Positions 46,915 through 61,967 of a stretch of DNA of 64,000 nt are shown in pieces. The translations under genes were made by a program, and so were the position numbers. The DNA is from Psychrosphaera saromensis (GTDB lineage: Bacteria > Pseudomonadota > Gammaproteobacteria > Enterobacterales > Alteromonadaceae), in the NCBI RefSeq assembly GCF_002954545.1, contig NZ_MSCH01000003.1:1514824-1578823 (forward strand), written 5' to 3'. The notes under the pieces were generated by a model. That model was not told where the DNA came from and made no database searches. It saw only the letters and a list, made by a program, of their open reading frames with translations. Positions within the stretch are counted from its first letter, which is position 1. Every line of letters begins with the position of its first letter.

Positions 46915-47272
46915 ATTTGCGGCTTTCGAGTTTCAAGTATCTCGATAATAATTCTGTCCATTAAGTTACTGATCACAAAATATACATTACGCTTAAAATA
47001 GATTGCTCGTTCATTATCGGTTGTTGAGCGCAAGTGTATTTGTGCATGTTAATTAGCTAGGTAGAATAAGGTAAAGTTATAGCGTTAATTAATAAAGTTC
47101 CTTATTTGAGGATATGTATATCCCCATATCGGGATAAGTAAATGTTAAAGTAAAGATTTGATATTTAGCCTGTTTTAACGCATTGAAATATAAGAATAAA
47201 AATGTCGGTATGAATCTTGATTGTTTTGCCGATTATCGTTTTAAAAACCTTAAATTATTTGGATTTGGATAA
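46915..47272. promoter_or_regulatory. Upstream region of the efflux operon
   Basis: This 358-bp region has no gene. Two overlapping inverted repeats stand out: GGATAT-gt-ATATCC (47110-47123) and TATCCC-N6-GGGATA (47119-47136). They could be the operator of a regulator of the efflux pump; no regulator gene is adjacent. TTTCGAGTTTCAAG near 46923 resembles the heptamer motif of the guaB-guaA spacer. Confidence 0.4.
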
Positions 47273-58392: not shown

Positions 58393-59862
58393 ATGTTGCG
58401 CATAGCTAAAGAAGCTCTAACATTTGATGATGTCCTACTTGTTCCAGGACATTCTACGATTCTTCCTCACGAAGCCAATCTAAAAACTCGTTTAACTCGT
58501 AACATCGAATTAAATATCCCTATGGTGTCCTCAGCAATGGACACAGTTACAGAAAGCCGTTTAGCAATCGCCCTTGCGCAAGAAGGTGGATTAGGTTTTA
58601 TTCATAAGAATATGTCTATTGAAGCTCAAGCTAACGAAGTGCGTCGTGTAAAAAAATTCGAAGCTGGTGTTGTTTCTGACCCTGTTACTGTTTCTACTGC
58701 CATTAATGTTGGCGAAGTAATGGCTATGGCTGACGAGCATGGCTTCTCAGGTTTCCCAGTTGTAGATAAAGACAATAATTTACAAGGTATTGTAACTGGC
58801 CGAGATCTCCGTTTTGAAGCGAATTTAAAAACCAACGTAACTAGTATCATGACACCAAAAGAGCGTCTGATCACAGTGAAAGAAGGTGAAGCAAACGAAG
58901 TTGTTTTCAAGCTTATGCACGAAAACCGCATCGAAAAAATCTTAGTTGTAGATGATGAATTTAAACTTAAAGGCATGATCACAGTAAAAGACTTCCAAAA
59001 AGCAGACAGTAAACCAAATGCATGTAAAGATTCTTTAGGAAGATTACGTGTAGGAGCAGCGGTAGGCGTTGGCGCAGGTACAGATGAACGTATTGAAGCT
59101 TTAGTAGCAGCAGGTGTAGATGTTTTATTAATTGACACATCTCATGGTCACTCTCAAGGTGTACTAGACCGTGTTGCTAAAACAAGAGCCGCATACCCAG
59201 ATTTAGATATCGTAGGTGGTAACGTAGCAACTGCTTCAGGCGCATTAGCTTTAGTAGAAGCTGGCGTTGACGCAGTTAAAGTAGGAATTGGCCCAGGTTC
59301 AATTTGTACAACACGTATCGTTACTGGCTGTGGTGTTCCACAAATTACTGCCATTTCAGATGCAGTTGAAGCTGTTGCAGGCAAAGATATCCCAGTAATC
59401 GCAGACGGTGGTATCCGTTTCTCAGGTGACATTTCAAAAGCTCTAGTCGCAGGCGCAAGCTGCGTTATGGTTGGTTCAATGTTAGCTGGTACAGAAGAAG
59501 CACCAGGCGAAGTTGAGTTATACCAAGGCCGTTACTACAAATCATACCGCGGCATGGGAAGCTTAGGCGCAATGAACCAGTCTCATGGTTCATCAGATCG
59601 CTACTTCCAAAAATCAGACAACAAAGAAAAATTAGTACCAGAAGGTATTGAAGGACGTGTTGCATACAAAGGCCCAATCGAAAACATAATCCACCAACAA
59701 TTAGGTGGCATACGTTCAGCAATGGGTCTAACAGGCTGTGGTTCAATTCCAGAATTAAACACCAAACCTGTATTTGTACGCGTAACATCAGCAGGCATGG
59801 GCGAGTCTCATGTGCATGATGTGCAAATTACAAAGGAAGCACCAAACTACCGTATGGGCTAG
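58393..59862 (+). CDS. guaB: IMP dehydrogenase GuaB
   Basis: GuaB oxidises IMP to XMP with NAD, the first step of guanine nucleotide synthesis. The TIM barrel is interrupted by a CBS pair (residues about 95-205, VVSDPVTV to KDFQKADS). The catalytic loop [15 protein letters not shown] has C305, the same number as in E. coli. [10 protein letters not shown] and the flap with RVAYKGP are also present. The 489-residue length is typical. AAGG precedes the ATG. guaA follows, but only after a 521-bp repeat-rich spacer. Confidence 0.98.
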
Positions 59863-60013
59863 TTTATTCTTTGTTTTGTCGTCAGTTTAACTGATCTCGG
59901 TGTCAGCAATGCTCAAGTAGACTTCTACGTTCCGCGTTGCCTCCTTGACCTCAATTAAACTGACTTAAAAACAAATGAAGAAACGGGTGAAAATAGCTTG
60001 TCTCTTTGCTCCC

Positions 60014-60078
60014 GTTCAAGAAATAGCGCGTCGAGAGTGCTCATGTATTGGCATACACTGCGCGCGCTCTTCTTGAAC
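60014..60078. repeat. Long imperfect hairpin
   Basis: Perfect 9-bp arms GTTCAAGAA (60014-60022) and TTCTTGAAC (60070-60078) are followed inward by AGCGCG (60025-60030) and CGCGCT (60063-60068), then AGTG (60036-60039) and CACT (60056-60059). This resembles a REP- or MITE-like mobile palindrome. I saw no second copy in the window. Confidence 0.6.
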
Positions 60079-60169
60079 TGAAACAAATATTCGGCGCTAT
60101 AAATTAGAAATTAAATTATGTTTTTTTGCCAGTTTGACTGATCTCGTTATCAGCAATGCTCTTGAGCTA

Positions 60170-60260
60170 CGAGTCACGAGTTTCGAGTTTCGAGAGGCGA
60201 GCTTAAGACTTACAGCTTATAGCTTACGGCTTACAGCTTACAGCTTACAGCTTAAGACTA
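60170..60260. repeat. Heptanucleotide tandem repeat, 13 units
   Basis: An unbroken 7-bp period runs for 91 bp. The first five units are variants of CGAGTTT; the rest are variants of ACAGCTT, with three perfect copies in a row and AAGACTT/AAGACTA at the two ends of that block. No reading frame spans it. Confidence 0.85.
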
Positions 60261-60307
60261 AAAACTTGCAGCCTATAGCTTCAAGTTGTACATAAAAATT
60301 ATTAAAC

Positions 60308-60333
60308 AAAGTCGGATTATATATCCGGCTTTT
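60308..60333 (+). terminator. Terminator-like hairpin before guaA
   Basis: AAAGTCGGAT and ATCCGGCTTT (one G:T pair) with a short loop are followed by TTT-C-T. It would end guaB read-through about 50 bp before guaA, or act as an attenuator in the guaA leader. Confidence 0.6.
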
Positions 60334-60383: not shown

Positions 60384-61967
60384 ATGTCAGTAAAACAAGA
60401 CATTCACCAGCATAAGATTTTAATTTTAGATTTTGGTTCTCAATACACTCAATTGATTGCTCGTCGTGTACGTGAAATTGGTGTTTATTGTGAATTATGG
60501 GCTTGGGATGTTACCGAAGAACAAATCAAAGGCTTTAATCCAAACGGGATTATATTAGCTGGTGGACCTGAGTCTGTTACCGAATATGACTCTCCACGTG
60601 CGCCTGAGTATGTATTTAACGCTGGTATTCCAGTGCTTGGTATTTGTTACGGCATGCAAACTATGTCACAGCAATTAGGTGGTTCAGTAGAAACATCTGA
60701 TGATCGTGAGTTTGGTTATGCTCAAGTTGAAGTTATCAAATCATCTCCATTGATTAAAGATATTGAAGATGCAATCACAGCAGACGGTAATGCGTTATTA
60801 GACGTATGGATGAGTCATGGTGATAAAGTTAGTTCAATCCCTGCAGACTTCACTACAGTAGCTAAAACTGAATCTTGCCCTTATGCAATTATGGCCAATG
60901 AAGATAAGCAGTTTTATGGTGTGCAATTCCACCCAGAAGTAACGCATACCAAACAAGGTTTACAATTATTAGAAAACTTTATTTGTAACATTTGTGCTTG
61001 TGAGAAGTTATGGACGTCAGCGACTATTATTGAAGACGCGATTGCCAAAATGAAAGAGCAAGTTGGCGACGACGAAGTTGTACTCGGTTTATCTGGTGGT
61101 GTTGACTCTTCTGTTGTGGCTATGTTGTTACATAGAGCTATCGGTAAAAAACTAACTTGTGTATTTGTTGATAACGGTTTACTTCGTTTAAACGAAGGCG
61201 AACAAGTTATGGACATGTTTGGCGATAAATTTGGCTTGAACATTATCCACGTTAAAGCTGAAGACAGATTTTTAGACCGTTTAGCGACAGAAAATGACCC
61301 TGAGAAAAAACGTAAAATCATCGGTAACGTATTTGTTGAAATTTTTGATGAAGAAGCCAGTAAATTAACCAATGCAAAATGGTTAGCGCAAGGCACTATT
61401 TATCCAGACGTAATCGAATCTGCTGCATCTGCAACGGGTAAAGCGCATGTGATTAAATCACACCACAATGTTGGTGGCCTTCCTGATGATATGGAGCTTG
61501 GTTTAGTTGAGCCTTTACGTGAGTTGTTTAAAGACGAAGTACGTAAAATTGGTTTAGAACTTGGCTTGCCATACGACATGTTATATCGCCACCCATTCCC
61601 TGGGCCTGGTTTAGGTGTTCGTATCTTAGGTGAAGTGAAAAAAGAATACGCAGACTTGTTACGTCGTGCGGATCATATCTTCATTGAAGAACTTCACGCT
61701 GCTGATTTATACAATAAAGTAAGCCAAGCGTTTACTGTATTTTTACCAGTGCGTTCTGTTGGCGTTATGGGCGACGGTCGTAAATACGACTGGGTTGTTA
61801 GCTTACGTGCAGTAGAAACTATCGACTTTATGACGGCGCATTGGGCACATTTACCTTATGATTTCTTAGGTAAAGTATCTAATCGTATTATCAATGAAAT
61901 TGATGGTATTTCTCGTGTCGTTTATGACATTAGTGGTAAGCCGCCAGCTACCATTGAATGGGAATAA
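60384..61967 (+). CDS. guaA: GMP synthase (glutamine-hydrolysing) GuaA
   Basis: GuaA aminates XMP to GMP with ATP and glutamine. The N-terminal class I amidotransferase domain has the nucleophile C88 (LGICYGMQ) and [10 protein letters not shown]. The ATP-pyrophosphatase domain starts with [15 protein letters not shown], and the C-terminal dimerisation domain ends PPATIEWE. The 527-residue length is near E. coli (525). It is probably co-regulated with guaB, although the spacer and its hairpin may uncouple them. Confidence 0.98.

Follow-up and report, generated by a model that had tools for sequence, protein, structure and literature searches.

A degenerate heptanucleotide array between guaB and guaA of Psychrosphaera saromensis: related arrays, strand orientation and a possible origin in replication slippage

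In Psychrosphaera saromensis, the spacer which separates guaB from guaA contains a run of 7-base units of two kinds. How such an array arises, whether it bears on the expression of guaA, and why its units are constant in some positions and variable in others are the questions raised by this locus. The window, which is the whole stretch of DNA analysed here, is 64,000 nucleotides long and corresponds to positions 1514824-1578823 of the contig NZ_MSCH01000003.1, whose length is 3,632,126 bases.

The array between guaB and guaA and its counterparts in the genus

The array spans about 60160-60285 of the window and, by direct reading of the sequence, consists of 18 heptads in a single register (Table 1). 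The original prediction described thirteen units without a frame break, which the sequence at 60167-60257 bears out. It called the first five of them CGAGTTT-like. There are indeed five type B units at 60167-60201 (CTACGAG, TCACGAG, TTTCGAG, TTTCGAG and AGGCGAG), but TTTCGAG occurs exactly in only two of them, and the constant part is CGAG, which reads CTCG, the type B core, on the minus strand. The eight following units, described as ACAGCTT-like, are indeed eight CTTNNNN units in the register of the type B units (CTTAAGA, CTTACAG, CTTATAG, CTTACGG, CTTACAG, CTTACAG, CTTACAG and CTTAAGA). The degenerate type A tail is also found in the sister species G036. TRF divides the array in two.

Table 1. 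Features of the guaB-guaA region (window coordinates)
Feature	Position	Strand	Basis or remark
guaB (IMP dehydrogenase), upstream of the array	58393..59862	+	ORF; Pfam IMPDH, E 1.8e-159
Type B block	60160..60201	+	TCTTGAG (60160-60166) and five CGAG-ending units; sequence; TRF 60177-60194
Inverted repeat bracketing the type B block, TCTTGAGCT / AGCTTAAGA	60160..60208	+	can fold back
CGAGCTT, B/A hybrid at the switch point	60198..60204	+	at the switch in P. saromensis, G036 and G154
Type A block, eight CTTNNNN units (ACAGCTT-like)	60202..60257	+	sequence; TRF 60200-60254
Four degenerate type A units in the register of the array	60258..60285	+	CTAAAAA CTTGCAG CCTATAG CTTCAAG
Terminator-like hairpin with T-rich tail, between the array and guaA	60308..60332	+	fold -12.4 kcal/mol, z -5.7
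guaA (GMP synthase), downstream of the array	60384..61967	+	ORF; Pfam GATase and GMP_synt_C

The array is real and exceeds chance: the spacer scores 44 for period 7, whereas 5000 first-order Markov versions of it reach at most 16, and 60 Markov versions of the whole 64 kb at most 14. The units are thus repeated head to tail beyond what base composition and neighbour frequencies produce.

The spacer contains other repeated elements. An inverted-repeat element at 59882-59968, upstream of the array, folds with a z of -4.2, and its first third is repeated at 60130-60161, immediately 5' of the array; this partial copy is the sole further one in the P. saromensis DNA that was searched. G154 has only a partial form of the element, fused to its array. 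A stretch of 30 bp (60036-60065) recurs with 97% identity at 3416722-3416751 of the contig, where a further type A array lies at a distance of about 140 bp. The fold of 60160-60292, in which the type B block can pair back on itself, has a z of -2.5 relative to shuffled sequences.

The comparison covered seven further genomes of the genus (G036, G154, G077, G190, G134, G108 and G173). An array of type B followed by type A is common to P. saromensis, G036 and G154, and is absent from the five others. The period-7 score of the spacer is 28 in G154 and 11 in G036, compared to 5, 5, 3, 2 and 3 in G077, G190, G134, G108 and G173, respectively; the array of G036 is counted by homology, because the score of so short an array lies within chance. 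The distance between the guaB stop and the guaA start is 521 bases in P. saromensis, 460 in G036, 212 in G154, 123 in G077, 296 in G190, 109 in G134, 107 in G108 and 128 in G173. From anchor to anchor, the array region measures 102 bases in P. saromensis, 74 in G154 and 39 in G036, and the differences (28, 35 and 63) are exact multiples of 7. The number of units thus varies in 7-base steps among three closely related species, which here take the place of strains.

The original prediction proposed growth by slippage, and the common register and the lengths that differ by whole units in three species support it well. Since five of the seven congeners also have no array, the comparison supports both gain and loss of whole 7-base units by slippage at the guaB-guaA spacer.

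The change from type B to type A units had been ascribed either to divergence or to a fusion of two arrays. In all three carriers the switch occurs through CGAGCTT, in a shared register. This hybrid unit fits both types, so divergence through it accounts for the switch at least as well as fusion does. That separate type B and type A arrays were fused here by deletion or rearrangement is in keeping with the presence of adjoining A and B units at two further loci (47 kb and 2327 kb), but the junction unit and the single register in three species make fusion unnecessary, and we consider it unlikely.

Other orthologous spacers of P. saromensis and G036 also differ (the names ychF, ald and dapD come from reading the proteins, not from a family search). 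AAGCTGT occurs 14 times after ychF in P. saromensis, three times in G036 and not at all in five others; after ald, the copies number two and five, with none in three others. After dapD, P. saromensis has five CTCGTAG and G036 eight AAGCTGT, and five others have neither. Nine AAGCTGT follow a gene at 202 kb, compared to seven GCGAAAA in G036, and type B units follow a gene at 2355 kb where G036 has an 8-base unit. Since these spacers differ both in unit number and in unit sequence, units are gained, lost and replaced at fixed sites. At two loci, the units of G036 have 8 bases (AAGGTTAG and AAGGCTGT) where those of P. saromensis have 7.

Related arrays in the genome and their relation to genes

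The array is not alone in its genome: dozens of period-7 arrays were found elsewhere. An array identical in all strains and without other copies would have spoken against the original prediction; neither applies here, species being taken in place of strains. A fragment mentioned near 46923 proved to be a single TTTCGAGTTTC, with no array.

An even sample of the genome (59 stretches of 20 kb and the window, 1.244 Mb) together with targeted stretches covers about 1.38 Mb of the 3.6-Mb genome, N excluded, and contains 57 period-7 segments, 28 of which come from the sample; the targeted arrays derive from the matches listed, and outside the sample type B is incompletely covered beyond about 2.9 Mb. 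The segments are dispersed and mostly intergenic, six of the 57 being flagged inside a simple ORF call. In the even sample, period 7 accounts for 29 segments, periods 4, 5, 10, 11 and 13 for 3-10 each, periods 6, 8, 9, 12 and 15 for 15-56 each, and period 14 for 37; each of these counts includes one run of N, and the shuffle control gave 0 or 1.

Genome-wide, two tandem ACAGCTT give 71 overlapping matches and the reversed pattern none, while three CTCGNNN give 254 matches and the reversed pattern 23. The reversed controls of other degenerate patterns are not zero either (19 against 115 matches, and 13 against 67 for AGCTTNN x4). The likely reason in each case is that one type, when reversed, looks like units of the other. 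An assembly gap of N lies inside a CTCGAAA array at 1837914-1837990 of the contig, so the assembled length of that array is provisional. Facing pairs of type B units (CGAG units, then CTCG units), which are potential hairpins, occur mixed with GCTTTT runs at about 169-186 kb, 1151 kb and 2289 kb.

With genes taken from simple ORF calls, the closest gene end is a stop for 39 and a start for 16 of the 55 arrays that have genes on both sides, and the gene ends within 20 nt of an array are 24 stops and three starts. Twenty-three arrays lie at most 15 nt from a stop; for 16 of them the preceding gene is head-on, and AAGC/CGAG is found on the sense strand of that gene.

Some arrays adjoin a mobile element. 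Right ends of an IS3-type element lie at 890413, 2401540, 3545901 and 3632006 of the contig, with solo right ends at 622943 and 1403568 and a diverged one at 482641. An origin or spread of the arrays by this element, the right end of which is the one next to type A arrays, would agree with the four IS copies, of which one is interrupted and another truncated by the contig end, and the two solo ends that precede a type A array. It would also agree with a register that, by eye, is identical at seven of seven junctions, the diverged end included. Most arrays, that of guaB-guaA among them, have no such end, however, and the even sample contains no trace of the element except the solo end at 1403 kb. 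The copy at 890 kb, moreover, has a TTC duplication and an adjacent remnant right end, which fits insertion into a pre-existing site. The association also carries an ascertainment bias, because most IS copies were met by fetching arrays. The element is thus a weak candidate, and we regard this origin as highly doubtful.

The solo right-end copies measure 20-40 bp, and in G036 a solo right end is also found beside ACAGCTT arrays. No array adjoins the left end in the three copies where this end was seen.

The original prediction added that the array could alter the expression of guaA. It would then be a switch of variable length, which acts through spacing, RNA structure or a binding site. The position of the array before guaA and its different lengths among species suit this reading. 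Against it, the terminator-like hairpin separates the array from guaA, and five of the seven congeners have no array; an effect on guaA therefore appears unsupported. A similar hairpin was recognized by eye in the guaB-guaA spacers of all seven congeners; in P. saromensis, a pattern scan reports a stem at 60308-60332 on the minus strand only. No promoter-like site was found in the guaB-guaA spacer, and the single Rfam match to this spacer scores far below the gathering score. Besides, similar arrays occur beside many unrelated genes and nearer to stops than to starts. The regulatory reading, which we rejected on these grounds, seems very improbable.

Strand orientation and conserved core

The dnaA gene is at 800711 of the contig, and the GC skew changes sign near it and near a dif-like site at 2567914. 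GCTT or CTCG lies on the leading strand in 39 of the 53 arrays that have a clear motif (p 0.0008) and in 20 of the 24 arrays of the even sample (p 0.0015); four arrays lack such a motif. Merging the sample by locus gives 15 concordant, one mixed and three discordant loci (n = 19). Type B alone is significant, with 10 of 11 arrays in the sample and 23 of 31 overall, whereas type A alone is not (10 of 13, p 0.09, and 16 of 22, p 0.053). Between genes of the same strand, the motif is on the leading strand in 23 of 30 cases, compared to only 17 of 30 on the sense strand. These counts show that the arrays of this genome are biased in orientation with respect to the replication fork. The type B block of the guaB-guaA array, with CTCG on the lagging-sense strand, is an exception to this bias. 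Near the origin, four array sites are discordant (681, 890 and 1048 kb, and 978 kb by eye).

The weakest explanation, that the arrays are a polar chromosome signal which reads fork direction in the manner of KOPS, has the orientation of these 39 arrays in its favor but was rejected as next to negligible in probability, since the arrays are sparse, ACAGCTT x3 is missing from four of the eight genomes of the genus, and the lone motifs outside arrays have no leading-strand bias (106 leading and 123 lagging for ACAGCTT, 27 and 20 for CTCGAAA).

Four tandem ACAGCTT were found in at least 112 stretches of public genomes, 80 of which are listed by name; the hosts among the matches listed include Gammaproteobacteria, Bacteroidota, deltaproteobacterial lineages, Planctomycetota, Chloroflexota and others. 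GC skew stands in here for the leading strand, which it indicates only indirectly. Of the 110 usable loci among these at least 112 matches, 81 have a positive skew on the ACAGCTT strand, in line with the polarity of this genome (56 of the 79 listed first, 25 of the other 31); two stretches were too short for skew. After correction for the coding strand, the intercept of the skew is 0.027 +/- 0.005 for the ACAGCTT loci among these matches. The skew is positive in 27 of 35 taxon groups, drawn from titles, among the 79 listed loci. The end of a gene on the opposite strand lies at most 12 nt from the array in 42 of the 110 usable loci, compared to 3 of 110 for a gene on the same strand. These loci are not independent, because several are Pseudoalteromonas orthologues.

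For type B in other families, a test of the strand bias gave no support: in 20 further places of six genomes, 13 of 21 arrays, mostly type B, agree with the bias. Agreement is found in 4 of 9 arrays of G373 and in all three of G159, the latter being type A. The arrays are patchily distributed. AGCTTNN x4 was found in one of 114 genomes of the class, which is this one, CTCGNNN x4 in 8 of 99 genomes of the order and ACAGCTT x3 in 9 of 295 genomes of the family, this genome being included in both counts. Four genomes of one genus of another family (G314, G337, G356 and G373) have many CTCGNNN x4 matches; G373 has 161, with near-perfect units.

The variation of the units is uneven. In 226 type B units, the deviations from the consensus of each array number 3, 2, 5 and 27 in the four positions of CTCG, compared to 84, 43 and 80 in the other columns. 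Similarly, 89 type A units have 0, 0, 4 and 0 deviations in CTTA and 19, 15 and 20 elsewhere. The core thus takes 37 of 244 deviations (0.15) in type B and 4 of 58 (0.07) in type A, whereas uniform decay under a like filter predicts shares of 0.46 and 0.50. The count covers arrays of either type that have at least five usable units and at least one deviation, and in them the units with at most one change in the core. As far as sequences can tell, the count shows a core of four bases (CTCG or CTTA) that is kept while three positions vary.

Together, a direction that follows the fork and a constant core suggest that the cause is mutational and linked to replication. We therefore consider, with moderate confidence, that the array is a degenerate heptanucleotide array which slipped-strand mispairing has lengthened and shortened by whole 7-base units, a process that would also explain the orientation and the core of such arrays. 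Slippage would arise during lagging-strand synthesis, and expansion would occur mostly where the nascent lagging strand is the one that folds slightly better (AAGCTGT / CGAGTTT). Re-annealing and renewed copying would be restricted to units whose core is intact, which may be why the core persists while the other positions drift. Arrays would survive only where they are harmless, often right after stop codons, where the TAAGCTG unit, which supplies stops in all three frames, might make them tolerated. A control function for guaA is not needed in this explanation.

The nascent lagging strand folds better than the other strand in 41 of 57 arrays, worse in 13 and equally well in three. Folding differs little from one strand to the other, however, and this is not independent evidence, because the energy difference follows the orientation of the motif.

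More tentatively, the heptad arrays could as a class be replication-polar products of core-primed slippage. The four-base core (CTCG or CTTA) would be the primer that re-anneals on the nascent lagging strand, so that three positions drift while the core stays fixed, and the direction of an array would record the direction of the fork, for the ACAGCTT type across phyla. This generalization is a possibility to which we give limited credence.

Comparison with known repeats

Heptanucleotide repeats are already known in bacteria. Heptameric long simple sequence repeats were reportedly described in 2007 in work attributed to Mrazek (reference 33 of the second paper discussed below), and Elhai is said to have described heptameric repeats in Nostoc in 2008. 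Literature searches of open-licence papers returned no report of CTCGNNN or ACAGCTT arrays, of their replication polarity or of the conservation of their core.

A close likeness is with the TAACTGA heptamers. They lie between genes, occur in some genomes together with other heptamers and are patchily distributed across distant phyla, and in two Cyanothece strains they differ by indels whose lengths go in steps of 7 nt (MacGregor 2015, PMC4679880). The present arrays share with them the intergenic 7-base unit, the mixture with different heptamers, the 7-nt steps and the patchy presence across phyla. The unit is another one (CGAGNNN and CTTNNNN), and the arrays are nearer to stops, whereas most TAACTGA sets of a Beggiatoaceae genome are just upstream of start codons (MacGregor 2015, PMC4679880). 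In a Microcystis sample, eight sets between stop codons had one chromosomal orientation, and the author asked whether this holds genome-wide (MacGregor 2015, PMC4679880).

The G-rich heptamers of Xanthomonas and Nostoc (GGGAATC and GGGGA(C/T)T) are dispersed, intergenic, close to ORFs and quadruplex-forming; their length and sequence vary among related species, and some form inverted pairs (Rehm 2015, PMC4692102). The dispersed, intergenic, near-ORF variability is common to both systems, as is the occurrence of some inverted pairs. The quadruplex-forming units belong to theirs, GGG being found in none of the 18 heptads here, and so does the missing strand preference, as none between leading and lagging strands is reported for GGGAATC of Xanthomonas. 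The same paper states that heptamers are over-represented among bacterial long repeats, for a cause that is unsettled, and that slippage was proposed in its reference 33 (Rehm 2015, PMC4692102). Both the over-representation of a 7-base unit and the proposed cause are matched here.

The expansion of CTG/CAG repeats is favored in one replication orientation, with CAG as the lagging-strand template (reviewed in PMC3310812). The dependence on orientation is alike, and the fold count given above fits this effect; theirs is a trinucleotide studied in vitro, in yeast and in human, and the present case is made from sequence evidence alone. The heptad arrays could act as fast strain markers, and their orientation answers, for another unit, the kind of genome-wide question raised for Microcystis by MacGregor (2015).
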